DNA from: Pseudomonadota bacterium
GTDB taxonomy: Bacteria; Pseudomonadota; Gammaproteobacteria; Burkholderiales; Thiobacillaceae
DNA length: 32,126 nt
NCBI GenBank assembly: GCA_030691265.1
Contig: JAUYET010000024.1
Location: 1 to 32,126, forward strand
Direction of reading: 5' to 3'
Below are positions 9,128 to 32,009 of this stretch, piece by piece (positions within the stretch are counted from its first letter, which is position 1; each line of letters opens with the position of its first letter). The notes under the pieces were generated by a model. That model did no database searches. It had not been told where the DNA came from and saw nothing but the letters and a program-made list of their open reading frames with translations. A program made the translations under genes and the position numbers.

Positions 9128-9307
9128 CCGTGCTTATCGGGTTGTCACACCCACCCACTAGATGTAGTGGCGCGTGATTTCGCGGCATGGCGCCGTAGGT
9201 TGGGCAAAGCGAAGCGTGCCCAACAGCGCACCGGTTCGTTGGGCCCGCTTCGCTTTGCCCAACCTACGTCACAACCGGTAGTGGGTGGGTTAACCGGATA
9301 AGCACGG
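9128..9307. mobile_element. 180-bp MITE-like palindromic element, full length
   Basis: The ends are near-perfect inverted repeats: CCGTGCTTATCGGGTT on the left and AACCGGATAAGCACGG on the right. Inside is a palindrome with 30-base arms (9195-9224 and 9238-9267, one mismatch) starting GTAGGTTGGGCAAAGCG and separated by 13 bases. The 7-base sequence TTGATCC occurs at 9123-9129 and again at 9309-9315, a possible target-site duplication that includes the stop codon of the preceding gene. No open reading frame is present, so any movement would need a transposase from elsewhere. Related copies lie near 15348, 19558 and 31898. Confidence 0.75.
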
Positions 9308-17776: not shown

Positions 17777-18571
17777 ATGACACGTATTCGCATCCTCGCC
17801 GCCGCGCTTGCCGCTGGCGCCCTGCTCACGCCCGCCGCGCACGCCATGCAAGTCAAGGTCACCATCACCAGCCTGGCGCCCAGCCAGGGAGTGGAATTCA
17901 CCCCGGTCTGGGTGGGTTTCCATGACGGCGGCTTCGATACCTACAATTTGGGCGCAGCCGCGTCCGCGAACCTGGAGCGCCTGGCCGAGGACGGCAACGC
18001 CGCACCGATCAGCGCGGCCTTCAGCGCGGCCGGCCATACCCAGCAAGCCACCCTGCAAGGCACGGCCATCGGCGGCCCGCGCTTTGAGCCGGGCGACTCG
18101 ACCTCCTTTATTTTCGATCTGGACGGCAGCAATCCCGATAGCCGCTATATCAGCTTCCTGTCCATGGTCCTGCCCAGCAATGACGCCTTCTTTGGCAACG
18201 GCAACCCAACCGGTCACCGCATCTTCAATGACGACGGCAGCTTCGACGGGGAAGATTTCATCGTGCTGGGCTCGCTCGTGCGCGACGCCGGAACGGAAGT
18301 CAACGACGAGATTCCGGCCAACACCGCCCGCCTTGGTCAGGCAAGCCCCAATACGGGCGTGGACGAGTTCGGCGTCGTAACCGCGCATGCCGGCTTTATT
18401 CCCGGCGGCAATATCCTCACCGCTTTCCCGAATGGCGACTTCACCCAGACCGGCTATCAGGTAGCGCGCATCCAGGTGGCTGCGGTACCCGAACCTGAAA
18501 CCTGGGCCATGCTTCTGGCCGGCCTGGGATTGGTCGGTTTTAACGCCGCGCGCGCGCGGCGGCGTGGATAA
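17777..18571 (+). CDS. Spondin-domain protein with PEP-CTERM sorting signal
   Basis: The 264-residue secreted protein has a signal peptide (about 1-23, cleavage after AHA). A Spondin_N-like domain (about 25-220) contains TPVWVGFHDGGFDTYNLGA and SFIFDLDGS. The C-terminal sorting signal is a PEP motif (VPEPETWAM), a hydrophobic helix and a basic ARARRRG tail. PEP-CTERM proteins are exported and processed by an exosortase, usually in organisms making extracellular polysaccharide. The exosortase is not encoded here. AAGGAG lies 7 bases before the ATG. It is divergent from the two-component system and is followed 119 bases later by a second PEP-CTERM gene. Confidence 0.9.
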   Translation: MTRIRILAAALAAGALLTPAAHAMQVKVTITSLAPSQGVEFTPVWVGFHDGGFDTYNLGAAASANLERLAEDGNAAPISAAFSAAGHTQQATLQGTAIGGPRFEPGDSTSFIFDLDGSNPDSRYISFLSMVLPSNDAFFGNGNPTGHRIFNDDGSFDGEDFIVLGSLVRDAGTEVNDEIPANTARLGQASPNTGVDEFGVVTAHAGFIPGGNILTAFPNGDFTQTGYQVARIQVAAVPEPETWAMLLAGLGLVGFNAARARRRG

Positions 18572-18690: not shown

Positions 18691-19404
18691 ATGCCGAATT
18701 TTCGTTTGATCTCACTGGGCTTTGCCGCCCTCATCTCGCTGAGCCCGGTCTCGGCTCTGGCCGCCAACGCTGTGGTGGATGCCTATGACGACTTTCTTCC
18801 CAGTTACACCGCCGGCCCGGCCAATGGCGACCTGGACGTGATCGCCGCCGCAGCCTTCTACGATGGCGCCGATCAGCGCTTCTCCTTCAGCACCATCCTG
18901 GCCGACAAGGTTGGACTGACCGCGGGCGCGCTGTATGTCTGGGGGATCGACCGCGGCCGCGGCACCGAGCGCTTCCTGGCCGGCTCGCCCGCCATCGGCG
19001 CCGGCGTGTTGTTCGACTCGGTGCTGATCGTCCGCCCCAACGGCACCGGTTTGTATAACGACTTCATCAACGCCGTGGTGACCAACCTGGATCCCGCCAA
19101 CATCAAGATCGGCAGCCTCACCGTCACGCTGGAGGATCTGCCGCTTGGCCTGTTCGCCCCCGGCACGACGGGTTTCAGGAGCGACCCCAGCCAGTACACC
19201 TGGAATCTGTGGCCCCGCGTGGGCTTGGGCAGCAATAACCAGATCAGCGACTTCGCCCCGGATGCCGCCAACCTGGGCTTCCAGGTAACCGCTGTGCCCG
19301 AGCCCGAAACCTGGGCCATGCTGCTGGCCGGCTTGGGTTTGGTCGGCTTGCAAGCAGCACGCACACGGCGTCATGCCCAAGCACTTGGTGACAGTCTCAC
19401 TTGA
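18691..19404 (+). CDS. PEP-CTERM sorting domain protein of unknown function
   Basis: The 237-residue product has a signal peptide (about 1-25, ending ALAAN), a beta-rich middle part with no domain I recognise, and a C-terminal PEP-CTERM signal (VPEPETWAM, hydrophobic helix, then ARTRRHAQ). The sorting signal is nearly identical to that of the gene before it, so the two are probably processed by the same exosortase. The middle part is acidic, with no cysteine, and contains a GIDRGRGTERF segment. AGGAG lies about 9 bases before the ATG at 18691; the frame is open to 18625 but no better start is seen. Confidence 0.85.
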   Translation: MPNFRLISLGFAALISLSPVSALAANAVVDAYDDFLPSYTAGPANGDLDVIAAAAFYDGADQRFSFSTILADKVGLTAGALYVWGIDRGRGTERFLAGSPAIGAGVLFDSVLIVRPNGTGLYNDFINAVVTNLDPANIKIGSLTVTLEDLPLGLFAPGTTGFRSDPSQYTWNLWPRVGLGSNNQISDFAPDAANLGFQVTAVPEPETWAMLLAGLGLVGLQAARTRRHAQALGDSLT

Positions 19405-19467: not shown

Positions 19468-19555
19468 GAACTTGCGTTCTGAATCCTTGATTGGAAGATC
19501 GTTGATCCTAGATTCCGCAGTTGGAGTAGTCGTAGGTGCGAATTTATTCGCACAG
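19468..19555 (+). repeat. 88-bp direct repeat, copy 1
   Basis: This 88-base sequence, beginning GAACTTGCGTTCTG and ending TTATTCGCACAG, occurs again without any mismatch at 19674-19761. Its last part is one arm (19532-19553) of the GTAGGTGCGAATTTATTCGCAC palindrome that is complete only in the second copy. No coding capacity is evident. Confidence 0.9.
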
Positions 19556-19557
19556 CC

Positions 19558-19674
19558 GTAGGTTGGGCAAAGCGAAGCGTGCCCAACAGCGCGCCGGTTC
19601 GTTGGGCACGCTTCGCTTTGCCCAACCTACGTCACTACCGGTAGTGGGTGGGTGTGTTAACCCGATAAGCACGG
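19558..19674. repeat. Palindromic element copy between the 88-bp direct repeats
   Basis: It has perfect 30-base arms at 19558-19587 and 19601-19630 (GTAGGTTGGGCAAAGCG... and its reverse complement) with a 13-base spacer, followed by TAGTGGGTGGGTGTGTTAAC and the right terminus CCCGATAAGCACGG of the element found at 9128. The left outer arm is missing and is replaced by the 88-bp repeat. Confidence 0.85.
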
Positions 19675-19795: not shown

Positions 19796-19945
19796 AGACA
19801 TCGCGCGCTCGACACCAACTCGGTATTCAGACGCATCACCGCCTGATCGTGGGCGAGCATTTTCACCGGCGGATTCTGGAGACCCCGTTGTTTGGCCGAT
19901 AATCGCCGCGTTTCCCTTGCCGCAGCCGACCCGAAGGATGTCAGA

Positions 19946-20542
19946 TTGAAAACACACCCTGCTGGCGAACCGGAACAGTGGCTGGACGACCACGGCACGG
20001 CGCTCTACAGCTTCGCCCTGGCGCGCATTCGCGATGAACATCTCGCCGAAGAGGCCGTGCAGGAAACGCTGCTGGCGGCGCTGGAGTCGCGCGAACGCTT
20101 CAGCGGCGCAGCCTCGGTGCGCACCTGGCTGATCGGCATCCTCAAGCACAAGATCATGGACCATTTCCGGCGCGCTTCCCGCGAGGCGCCGCTGGATGAC
20201 CCGGCGGGTTGCGACGACCTCGACGAGGGCGCAAGCGACGAGATGTTCGCTGCCGATGGTCACTGGCGAGATCGCATGGCCGATTGGGGCGATCCGCAGG
20301 AAACCCTGGAACGCAGCCAATTCATGGCCATCCTGCAGCGCTGCCTGGACGCTTTGCCGCCGCGTCTGGCCCGCCTTTTCTGGCTGCGCGAGGTGATGGA
20401 AGAAGACAGCGAAATAATTTGTAAGGAATTGGCGATCACGCCGACCAACCTGTGGACGATGCTGCATCGGGGCCGTTTGGGTCTTCGGCAGTGTCTCGAC
20501 AGGAACTGGGTCGGCAACGTGACTATCGCCGCCCGGGGGTGA
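19946..20542 (+). CDS. ECF-type RNA polymerase sigma factor
   Basis: The roughly 198-residue protein has a sigma-70 region 2 (about 12-80: ALYSFALARIRDEHLAEEAVQETLLAAL..., then VRTWLIGILKHKIMDHFRR) and a region 4 (about 130-190: LPPRLARLFWLREVMEEDSEIICKELAITPTNLWTMLHRGR). An acidic linker joins them. There is no region 1 or 3, as in ECF sigma factors. The start is taken as the TTG at 19946 because GAAGGA lies about 8 bases before it; the frame is open back to a TTG at 19892. The stop TGA is immediately followed by the ATG of a small zinc-finger gene, so the two are coupled as sigma and anti-sigma. Its likely target is the HvfA-like gene downstream and its own promoter. Confidence 0.88.
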   Translation: MKTHPAGEPEQWLDDHGTALYSFALARIRDEHLAEEAVQETLLAALESRERFSGAASVRTWLIGILKHKIMDHFRRASREAPLDDPAGCDDLDEGASDEMFAADGHWRDRMADWGDPQETLERSQFMAILQRCLDALPPRLARLFWLREVMEEDSEIICKELAITPTNLWTMLHRGRLGLRQCLDRNWVGNVTIAARG

Positions 20543-20824
20543 ATGAAAATGCTGACCTGCAAGGATGCAAGCCACTTGATCTCGGAACGCCTGGAACGCC
20601 CGCTGGGGTTCCAGGAACGCTGGGGTCTGCGCATGCATCTCTGGATTTGCGTCAGTTGCCGGCAGTTTGTGCGGCAGTTGACCTTGATGCGACTCGCCCT
20701 GCGCAAGCTGGGCGAGCGCGCCAAAGCCGATGCAGCCGGCGCGGAACTTTCCCCCGAGGCGCGTGAACGCATCCGCAAGGCTTTGGCCGAGCGGGGTGGT
20801 CACGAAAATGAACACGAGCACTGA
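20543..20824 (+). CDS. Small zinc-finger (zf-HC2/ZAS-type) anti-sigma factor
   Basis: The 93-residue protein has the zinc-binding anti-sigma pattern: Cys near residue 6 (LTCKDAS) and the H-x3-C-x2-C motif in HLWICVSC at about 32-39. A helical C-terminal part ends in a His/Glu-rich tail (GGHENEHEH). ZAS domains hold an ECF sigma factor inactive until a redox or metal signal alters them. There is no membrane helix, so it would sense a cytoplasmic signal. The ATG directly follows the sigma factor stop (TGAATG) and GGGGGTG serves as the Shine-Dalgarno. The His-rich tail suggests possible metal binding (inference). Confidence 0.82.
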   Translation: MKMLTCKDASHLISERLERPLGFQERWGLRMHLWICVSCRQFVRQLTLMRLALRKLGERAKADAAGAELSPEARERIRKALAERGGHENEHEH

Positions 20825-20849
20825 AGCCGCCCGGCTCCCCGAGACCATC

Positions 20850-20879
20850 GTCATGAATCGCCCGTTTTGGGCCCATGAC
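20850..20879 (+). other. Hairpin between the anti-sigma gene and the HvfA-like gene
   Basis: GTCATG (20850-20855) pairs with CATGAC (20874-20879), and inside it GCCC pairs with GGGC around GTTTT. It sits in the 74-base gap and ends 19 bases before the HvfA-like ATG. No U-run follows, so it may be a processing or attenuation site that lets the precursor be expressed at a different level from the sigma factor. Confidence 0.35.
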
Positions 20880-20898
20880 CTTACTTTGGAGAATCGAC

Positions 20899-21270
20899 AT
20901 GAACGCAAGCAAAACCACGCTGACCCTCGCCCTGACTGCGGCCATCGGCGCTGCCACCGGTATTGCCGGTAGCGCCCACGCGGCGGGCAATCCGTTCGCC
21001 ATGCAAGCCCTGAACCAGACCTACATGGTGGCCGCCGCCGACGACAAGGCGATGGAGGGAAAATGCGGCGGCAAGAAGGATATGGAAGGCAAGTGCGGTG
21101 GCGAGAAAGAGAAAGCCGGCGCAAAAGCAAAAGCAAAAGCCAAAGCCAAGGAGGGCAAATGTGGTGAAGGCAAGTGCGGCGGCAGCAAAGCCAAGACCAA
21201 GGCGATGGAAGGCAAGTGCGGCGGTGACAAGGCGAAAGCCATGGAAGGCAAATGCGGCGGTAGCAAGTAA
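20899..21270 (+). CDS. hvfA: HvfA/bufferin-like secreted RiPP precursor with six EGKCG motifs
   Basis: The 123-residue product has a signal peptide (about 1-28, cleaved after AHA), a NPFAMQALNQTYMVAAADDK segment typical of HvfA N-termini, and a low-complexity Lys/Gly/Ala-rich core. That core has six EGKCG motifs, with cysteines at 56, 66, 88, 93, 107 and 119; these are its only cysteines. In Haemophilus HvfA and in the related bufferins, an MNIO (DUF692) enzyme with a partner protein converts such cysteines into oxazolone/thioamide or thiooxazole groups that bind copper in the periplasm. No such enzyme gene is in this window. GGAGA about 9 bases before the ATG at 20899 supports the start. The sigma/anti-sigma pair 75 bases upstream probably controls it. 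Confidence 0.85.
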   Translation: MNASKTTLTLALTAAIGAATGIAGSAHAAGNPFAMQALNQTYMVAAADDKAMEGKCGGKKDMEGKCGGEKEKAGAKAKAKAKAKEGKCGEGKCGGSKAKTKAMEGKCGGDKAKAMEGKCGGSK

Positions 21271-21273
21271 GTT

Positions 21274-21345
21274 GTAGGGTGGATAAGCGCAGCGTGCCCA
21301 ACGAGCCGGCGCGATGTTGGGAACGCTACGCTTTGCACAACCTAC
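21274..21345. repeat. Hybrid palindromic element directly after the HvfA-like gene
   Basis: The left arm begins GTAGGGTGGATAAGCGCAGC as in the next element, but continues GTGCCCAAC and pairs with a right arm GTTGGGAACGCTACGC...CAACCTAC of the 9128 type, across a 13-base spacer. The arms are only partly complementary. It begins three bases after the stop codon of the HvfA-like gene. Confidence 0.75.
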
Positions 21346-21356
21346 GGCGCCAAGTT

Positions 21357-21427
21357 GTAGGGTGGATAAGCGCAGCGCATCCACCGATAGCCGACGATGG
21401 TGGATGCGCTGCGCTTATCCACCCTAC
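21357..21427. repeat. Palindrome of the GTAGGGTGGATAAGCGCAGC type
   Basis: Perfect 29-base arms (21357-21385 and 21399-21427) are separated by 13 bases. The arm sequence differs from the 9128 family apart from the GTAGG/CCTAC ends, but the arm length and spacer length are the same. The rest of the gap up to 21498 has no feature I recognise. Confidence 0.9.
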
Positions 21428-21498
21428 GGCTACCAAGGAAATAAAGGGTATTTTGGCAATTTCCGACTCCCTGACTGCATGGCTGAACCGGAAGCGTG

Positions 21499-22059
21499 AT
21501 GAAGCGATACCGACGATTACTCACGGTGGCCCTGTTTCTGGGCTTGTTGCTGGCGGTGTTCCAGACGACCGGCCTGCGCGATCACTTCAGCATCGAGTTT
21601 CTGCGCCAAACCGTTCTGGACAACCGGCTCGGCGGGCTGCTGATTTTTATCCTGCTGTTCGCGCTGGGTAACCTGATCCAGATACCCGGGTGGATTTTTC
21701 TTGCGGCCGCGGTGCTTGCGCTGGGGCGAACCTGGGGCGGGCTTGCCACCTATGTCGCCGCCAGCATTTCCTGCGTGATCAGTTTTCTGATCGTCCGCCT
21801 CATCGGCGGCGATGCACTGCGGCAGATGAAGAACCGGATCGTCACCCGCATCCTCGGGCAACTGGACAGCCGCCCGATCGCAAGCATTCTGCTGGCGAGA
21901 GTCATGTTTCAGACCCTGCCGGCCCTCAATTACGCCCTCGCCATGTCAGGTGTCCGCTTCCGCGCCTACCTGCTCGGCACCTTGCTCGGCCTGCCACTGC
22001 CTATCGCCCTGTATTGCCTGTTCTTCGACACCCTGGCGAAGGCGCTCCACCTGATATAG
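21499..22059 (+). CDS. TVP38/TMEM64-family (VTT domain) membrane protein
   Basis: The 186-residue protein has about five membrane segments and the VTT-domain core: LGNLIQIPGWIFLAAAVLALG, the WGGLATYVAASISCVISFLIVR stretch, and the conserved Arg-containing SILLARVMFQTLPALNYALAMSGVRFRAYLLGTLLG. Related DedA/VTT proteins act in lipid flipping or membrane homeostasis; the role here is unknown. GGAAG lies a few bases before the ATG at 21499, and a GTG directly before it could also serve. Two palindromic repeats separate it from the HvfA-like gene, so co-transcription is doubtful. It is convergent with the next gene (10-base gap). Confidence 0.87.
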   Translation: MKRYRRLLTVALFLGLLLAVFQTTGLRDHFSIEFLRQTVLDNRLGGLLIFILLFALGNLIQIPGWIFLAAAVLALGRTWGGLATYVAASISCVISFLIVRLIGGDALRQMKNRIVTRILGQLDSRPIASILLARVMFQTLPALNYALAMSGVRFRAYLLGTLLGLPLPIALYCLFFDTLAKALHLI

Positions 22060-31897: not shown

Positions 31898-32009
31898 CCG
31901 TGCTTATCGGGTTAACACACACATACCGGTAGTGACGTAGGTTGGGCAAAGCGAAGCGTGCCCAACGAACCGGCGCGCTGTTGGGCACGCTTCGCTTTGC
32001 CCAACCTAC
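31898..32009. repeat. Copy of the MITE-like palindromic element after the DUF302 gene
   Basis: It has the left terminus CCGTGCTTATCGGGTTAAC and perfect 30-base palindrome arms (31937-31966 and 31980-32009) with a 13-base spacer. The right terminus seen at 9307 is not present. It lies immediately behind the stop codon of the DUF302 gene and could act as its 3' hairpin. Confidence 0.85.

Follow-up and report, generated by a model that had tools for sequence, protein, structure and literature searches.

An EGKCG-type HvfA precursor behind an ECF sigma/anti-sigma pair whose hvfB, hvfC and doxX genes appear to have been lost in place

Here we report the gene content, synteny, retained motifs and family-wide recurrence of a locus that encodes a HvfA-type precursor peptide behind an ECF sigma factor and a zinc-finger anti-sigma factor, with no hvfBC beside it. 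The locus lies in a 32,126-base stretch of DNA (the window) that is the entire contig C117 of a MAG (2.02 Mb in 117 contigs, 58.15% complete). With barely better than even confidence, we conclude that it is a former sigma/anti-sigma/hvfA/hvfB/hvfC/doxX operon from which hvfB, hvfC and doxX were lost in place, and that its HvfA is served by enzymes encoded elsewhere. The best reading is that any modification of the precursor takes place in trans. Open reading frames together with NCBIfam and Pfam profiles bore out the neighbours named in a preliminary description of this DNA, a sigma factor, a small anti-sigma factor and a VTT-domain gene, the last being the next gene after the precursor (Pfam PF09335). 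Coordinates are collected in Table 1.

Table 1. Positions of the features discussed, in the window and in related loci.
Feature	Sequence	Position	Strand	Basis or remark
Candidate promoter box before sigma	window	19890..19909	+	position and likeness only, by eye
ECF sigma factor, TIGR02943 type	window	19946..20542	+	NCBIfam and Pfam profiles, ORF
Zinc-finger (ZAS) anti-sigma factor	window	20543..20824	+	NCBIfam and Pfam profiles, ORF
Conserved 14-mer CCGAGACCATCGTC in the gap from the anti-sigma stop to the hvfA start	window	20839..20852	+	comparison of loci
hvfA-type precursor	window	20899..21270	+	ORF, NF050137, motif count, alignment
Junction region where L092 has hvfB, hvfC, doxX	window	21271..21495	.	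synteny, repeat comparison
VTT-domain membrane protein	window	21496..22059	+	PF09335; follows DoxX in relative L092
Sigma C-terminal remnant (G136)	L244	1964-2044		
Sigma C-terminal remnant (G140)	L247	775-855		
Sigma C-terminal remnant (G041)	L257	372-458		
Enzyme locus sigma2-asig2-MNIO-HvfC (G131)	L262	5760-6084		~80 bases, no precursor, between asig2 and MNIO
Second stand-alone EGKCG-type precursor (G008)	L117	7582-7923		
Second stand-alone EGKCG-type precursor (G009)	L118	570-908		
Second stand-alone EGKCG-type precursor (G006)	L253	7498-7884		
Second stand-alone EGKCG-type precursor (G005)	L252	2883-3389		

The precursor is 123 amino acids long, and all six of its cysteines fall inside EGKCG motifs, as the preliminary description had stated; EGKCG never occurred more than once in 20,000 shuffles of the 95-residue mature part. 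The peptide runs from MNASKTTLTLALTAAIGAATGIAGSAHA through AGNPFAMQALNQTYMVAAADDKA into a part rich in lysine, alanine and glycine that carries the six motifs. Residues 1-28 appear signal-like by eye and by conservation across 15 aligned precursors, the segment NPFAMQ..L...Y.VAAAD is conserved, and at N-terminal positions conserved to at least 90% the sole difference seen in the window's precursor is a change of G41 to T. Its score against NF050137, the NCBIfam HvfA family, exceeds the cut-off (32.4 bits, cut-off 19.5) and confirms it as a HvfA/EGKCG-type precursor. The score against the stricter equivalog NF050188 is below the cut-off (33.5 bits, cut-off 95); thus, we place the precursor in the wider HvfA family and do not call it a HvfA equivalog. 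No Pfam family matched up to E 0.1, DUF2282 of the Buf1 bufferins included, and no second hvfA was found among the recovered contigs of this 58.15% complete genome.

The sigma factor scored 195.3 bits against TIGR02943 (cut-off 162.2), with regions 2 and 4 recognized by PF04542 and PF08281, and its best 21 matches in relatives are 60-75% identical. The anti-sigma factor scored 73.2 bits against NF052368 (cut-off 50) and was also above the cut-off of PF13490. Its ligands, assigned by hand and numbered from the methionine at 20549, are C4, H30, C34 and C37. This gives H-x3-C-x2-C plus an N-terminal cysteine at the spacing of MseR, a ZAS protein of Neisseria meningitidis for which C4, H30, C34 and C37 are the positions reported (PMC2893595). 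From its length and sequence the anti-sigma factor is predicted to be soluble. Profiles and ligand spacing thus support the pairing of an ECF sigma factor with a small zinc-finger anti-sigma factor ahead of the precursor, as first described, and what that description missed is the known tie of ECF sigma/ZAS pairs to such clusters (PMC2893595, PMC7907618).

Between the anti-sigma stop and the hvfA start, the 14-mer CCGAGACCATCGTC recurs unchanged in 31 of 265 loci, many of which overlap one another, and it also occurs in G011 (L097 1076-1089), where hvfA lies ~2.5 kb further on. The candidate box before sigma partly resembles a GGTTCATAATCGCG block that precedes many, not all, sigma orthologues; among the 23 upstream sequences compared by eye, the block is not evident in several. 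By eye, no motif common to this box and CCGAGACCATCGTC was found. The stretch from anti-sigma to hvfA gave no support for a structured RNA (10 predicted pairs, one two-sided change, covariation term 0.22), and Rfam at gathering cut-offs gave no match anywhere in the window.

No MNIO, DUF2063 partner or DoxX gene adjoins the precursor on C117, and because the window is the whole contig, there is no MNIO just outside it on C117. The search for DUF692, HvfC and DoxX genes that had been proposed gave 0 matches to PF05114 (MNIO) and 0 to PF09836 (DUF2063) in the recovered genome (2.02 Mb, 58.15% complete). DoxX (PF07681) had one match, on another contig (C2:12156-12413), which shares 56% identity with the DoxX encoded at L092, the corresponding locus of a relative, and which is flanked by GGDEF-type and glucokinase-like genes as judged by reading of the translations. 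The claim that the precursor is an orphan holds for the contig, and its genome-wide part rests on a MAG that is 58.15% complete.

L092 comes from a genome of the same genus (G022) and has the order sigma, anti-sigma, hvfA, MNIO, HvfC, DoxX, VTT, whereas the window has sigma, anti-sigma, hvfA, VTT. The sigma, anti-sigma, hvfA and VTT genes are orthologous between the two loci (73% identity for sigma, 81% for anti-sigma and 78% for VTT), and the window is without all three genes that L092 has between hvfA and VTT. This synteny rules out a chance neighbourhood of an unrelated orphan. In place of hvfB, hvfC and doxX the window has 225 bp containing two dispersed palindromic repeats, at ~21285-21352 and ~21357-21429; further copies are at 9188-9268, 19555-19631 and 31936-32009 of the window. 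From this comparison, the three genes look to have been lost in place. It has the look of a sigma-antisigma-hvfABC-DoxX-VTT locus after a deletion, so that the VTT gene would be an old flank, a point that the preliminary description had also missed. The repeat has at least 85 match rows in the genome (both palindrome strands and the query itself counted), lies no more than 120 bases from the first base in 10 contigs among the matches listed, and limits the assembly. Given this abundance, also near contig starts, the junction is a plausible deletion site and a plausible assembly break point. Remnants of DoxX in the 225 bp were sought by tblastn of 11 DoxX proteins and rejected, as matches were at chance level only (best E 0.018). 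A GCGTGATG stretch before VTT is no sure DoxX relic, since it also occurs in G011 behind another gene.

Loss of hvfBC from the sigma locus recurs in the genus. A sigma orthologue is present in 12 of its 23 genomes, and hvfBC is beside sigma or within ~7 kb at nine of these 12 loci and absent at three (the window, G006 and G018). The sigma tree pairs G006 with G019 (support 97/93) and G018 with G002 (100/99), and both G019 and G002 have the enzymes. Because G006 and G018 are each sister to a hvfBC-bearing genome, we conclude that hvfBC was lost more than once; these two named pairs are the only ones used, because 14 of the 34 inner branches of the tree are open and some branches are long. In G006 there is a scar, with hvfA cut to three cysteines and running straight up to a 32-residue fragment from the end of hvfC, followed by DoxX. 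As a check outside the family we considered 80 loci, and in 23 of them sigma is followed within 5 kb, on its own strand, by an EGKCG frame. MNIO is absent there in only three of the 23 (L164, L167 and L185), which are G006, G018 and G070 again, and many sigma/anti-sigma pairs have no hvf gene of any kind nearby.

Across the 117 genomes of the family, hvfA was matched in 81 and MNIO in 80. After merging 19 rows that fell inside ORFs already counted, there were 106 hvfA places, and we called a place linked when MNIO lay at most 1.5 kb downstream on the same strand. By this definition 75 of the 106 places are linked and 31 are unlinked; one genome, G129, scores as linked only because a second complete operon comes after its enzyme-free cassette. 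Three of the unlinked places are contig-end cases (G002:C203, G041:C16, G128:C134), leaving 28 informative places. The 31 places fall in 28 genomes. In 19 of these there is an MNIO elsewhere, counting G041 (a partial match of 71 bits) and G136 (a distant type), and nine have no MNIO match: the window's genome (58% complete), G005, G006, G008, G009, G023, G034, G048 and G063, with G006, G008, G023 and G034 being 96-99% complete.

An enzyme-free arrangement of hvfA followed by DoxX, without MNIO or HvfC, is common to the Thiobacillus-like genomes G070, G122, G129, G131, G136, G138 (two copies), G140, G145, G154, G159 and G160. These cassettes keep the DoxX gene that the window lacks. Sigma and anti-sigma both lie upstream in G070, G122, G129 and one G138 copy; in the other cassettes sigma, or sigma and anti-sigma, were reduced or not found. 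No whole sigma or anti-sigma was found directly upstream in L243, L246, L247 (which has a sigma remnant), L248 or L250, the upstream sigma of L244 is a remnant only, and L249 and L251 have an anti-sigma but no sigma match. The sigma remnants upstream of hvfA in G136, G140 and G041 consist of a C-terminal stretch only, from residue 159 to ~187. G129 has its cassette immediately ahead of a second operon, sigma2-asig2-hvfA2-MNIO-HvfC. Genes for hvfA of this type (4-8 Cys) without an MNIO of their own occur in 12 genomes (G018, G070, G122, G129, G131, G136, G138, G140, G145, G154, G159 and G160), although in G160 the last motif pair is out of frame. All 12 genomes have an MNIO match, which in 10 is linked to another hvfA and in G136 is of a distant type (42%). 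A single genus accounts for eleven of the 12, which therefore do not count as independent cases.

The strongest evidence we have for action in trans comes from G131, where the precursor lacks enzymes beside it and the enzyme pair lacks a precursor. Its sole hvfA match is in a DoxX cassette, on another contig than the MNIO and HvfC genes, which follow a second sigma and anti-sigma (Table 1). The genome is 94% complete with 8% contamination, and its MNIO is 68% identical to that of L092. A KCGGMKQ stretch before this MNIO may be a relic of a precursor tail or may be chance. Tentatively, and at appreciably less than even confidence, we propose that in this family the EGKCG RiPP system has been split into separately switched units, with enzyme-free precursor cassettes, under a sigma and zinc anti-sigma of their own and often with DoxX, on one side and a maturase pair acting in trans on the other, the latter precursor-less in G131.

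We compared rates of change along the branches leading to individual precursors, bearing in mind that repeats and gene conversion can distort omega values. Two triples put the omega of the terminal branch of the G018 orphan at 0.08 and 0.05, with upper bounds of 0.30 and 0.11, and its enzyme-bearing sister G002 gave 0.14, so the G018 orphan precursor looks constrained. The branch of the damaged G006 precursor gave 0.39 versus 0.08 for its sister G019. For the window's precursor, three triples gave omega 0.30, 0.21 and 0.58. The intervals are wide, their upper limits being 0.8, 0.9 and above 1; constraint is likely here. The sigma-locus precursor is damaged or missing in four genomes: G006 (3 Cys left), G023 (signal joined to DoxX), G034 (nothing but DoxX pieces) and G059. 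MNIO is absent from G006, G023 and G034 and present in G059. Setting the 12 enzyme-free 4-8-Cys genomes against these four gave a Fisher value of 0.007 for precursor state versus MNIO, or ~0.018 (10/560, by hand) once G160 was moved to the damaged class, figures that are not true probabilities because the genomes are related and the classes are our own. Sigma loci without any hvfA trace (L100, L104, L106, L107 and L112) were left out of this table; of their genomes, G031 and G025 have MNIO, G041 has a partial match, and G045 and G063 have none.

Three other explanations could account for an hvfA without enzymes. One is that hvfBC and doxX are present in reality and were dropped where the assembler crossed the dispersed repeats. 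The junction is largely made of this repeat, with its many match rows and its position near the first base of the 10 contigs listed, which favours an artefact. However, the locus is syntenic with the relative on both sides, and a collapse would take a repeat between hvfA and hvfB, which are ~18 bases apart in ten linked sigma-type loci (the spacing in G056 being taken from its start). Exact sharing within the window is also short, with 15 bases on the minus strand and, on the plus strand, 26 bases that are a repeat internal to the junction. We regard an assembly artefact as improbable. A decaying remnant, in which the enzymes are gone and the precursor is without function and not yet eroded, would fit the decay in G059, G034, G006 and G023, the sigma remnants in G136, G140 and G041, the frame-shifted tail in G160, the raised omega of the G006 branch relative to G019 and the poorly bounded omega of the window's branch. 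Yet the window retains all six motifs and, equally intact, its signal-like segment, NPFAMQ block, zinc ligands and 14-mer CCGAGACCATCGTC, and we consider decay to be quite unlikely.

The third explanation is that the precursor works unmodified, as an exported free-thiol peptide rich in lysine and cysteine, acting by binding metal or taking up oxidants, and that loss of hvfBC was tolerated as a result. Nine of the 28 genomes with unlinked hvfA have no MNIO match, and four of these are 96-99% complete. A second stand-alone precursor type is found in the same-genus genomes G005, G006, G008 and G009, none of which has an MNIO match, and it gave omega 0.23 (G008 versus G009). In addition, a six-motif hvfA occurs separately in G023, a 99% complete genome in which MNIO has no match, and the same idea has been proposed for rare MNIO-free genomes (PMC12452194). 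Speaking against it, at the sigma locus MNIO-free relatives mostly have a broken precursor or none (G006, G023, G034), whereas each of the 12 enzyme-free cassettes that keep 4-8 Cys belongs to an MNIO-bearing genome. Function without modification is, in our judgement, unlikely but by no means negligible. The evidence against modification in trans is that no MNIO or DUF2063 gene is found in the 2.02 Mb recovered and that precursors retaining all or most of their motifs are present in G023 (99%) and G008 (99%) and, as a second precursor, in G006 (96%), nearly complete genomes in which MNIO had no match. The lack of DoxX, which sets the window apart from the Thiobacillus-like cassettes, also weighs against our reading; against loss in place with continued service by distant enzymes, one of the two other losses in the genus (G006) has a damaged precursor. 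Both modification in trans and function without it are alive in the family. Modification in trans or none at all was the pair of options first set out for this peptide, and it was the right one.

In G008 and G009 the second precursor adjoins nuo-like genes, by reading. Similar stand-alone precursors are present in G016, G019 and G022, each with an MNIO elsewhere in the genome. In G012 (L101 8000-8536), a precursor-like protein beside sigma/anti-sigma has two EGKCG-type motifs followed by long Cys-free DQAGGF-type repeats, and a complete hvfABC lies ~2 kb past it.

In the working we propose, oxidation or metal stress would free the sigma factor from the zinc anti-sigma factor, by analogy with MseR (PMC2893595) and RpoE2 (PMC7907618), and sigma would drive its own genes and hvfA. 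The Sec signal of HvfA would double as the leader, because HvfBC of H. influenzae prefer the full-length peptide (PMC13419390). With this segment intact, hvfA could be used by enzymes of another locus, and an MNIO-HvfC pair encoded in the unrecovered part of the genome would modify HvfA in the cytoplasm. Modified HvfA would then be exported and bind copper in the periplasm. The product would carry 5-thiooxazoles, at about -4 Da per Cys, which now take the place of the oxazolone/thioamide named in the preliminary description (PMC12668002, PMC13419390). For the window's HvfA, we infer expression, trigger, trans modification and copper binding.

We take NMB2141-2143 of N. meningitidis to encode HvfC, MNIO and the precursor. 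Like the window, the region NMB2140-2145 has an ECF sigma factor, autoregulated there, with a cytoplasmic ZAS anti-sigma factor; hypothetical genes and a DoxX-like gene are co-transcribed with that sigma, whereas the window is without enzymes and DoxX (PMC2893595). The Haemophilus influenzae hvf/oxazolin system has a Sec-signal precursor with six cysteines in EGKCG, as in the window (PMC13419390). There hvfB, hvfC and a DoxX-like gene are beside hvfA and sigma is encoded elsewhere, whereas in the window sigma adjoins and the enzymes are absent. RpoE2 of H. influenzae drives a cluster of DoxX-like, COG3767, COG3220/UPF0276 and DUF2063 genes, which is taken to be hvf, and its reported trigger is oxidative (HOCl, H2O2; PMC7907618). 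Stand-alone Buf_EGKCG/oxazolin precursors with no adjacent MNIO, as in the window, are described in PMC12452194, where MNIO genes are missing from 67 of the 2583 genomes that encode EGKCG precursors and where modification elsewhere or no modification is left open. The consulted parts of that paper describe neither loss from a sigma/ZAS operon nor a precursor-less enzyme locus, and in the open-licence literature, as far as consulted, we found no report of hvfBC loss from such an operon or of an enzyme locus without a precursor. Stand-alone precursors and both functional options are thus already known, and it is the evolutionary route that is new.

Repeated hvfBC loss provides natural test sets, namely relatives that have orphan precursors and, at a different locus, an enzyme pair, the G131 enzyme locus without its own precursor, and genomes with precursors in which no MNIO was found. 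If modification in trans is true, a single pair of enzymes could mature several copper-binding peptides that each answer to a different trigger. Elsewhere in the window, at 17777-18571 and 18691-19404, two adjoining secreted-type proteins have a common VPEPETWAMLLAGLGLVG near the C-terminus, a pair that is presumably PEP-CTERM-like.
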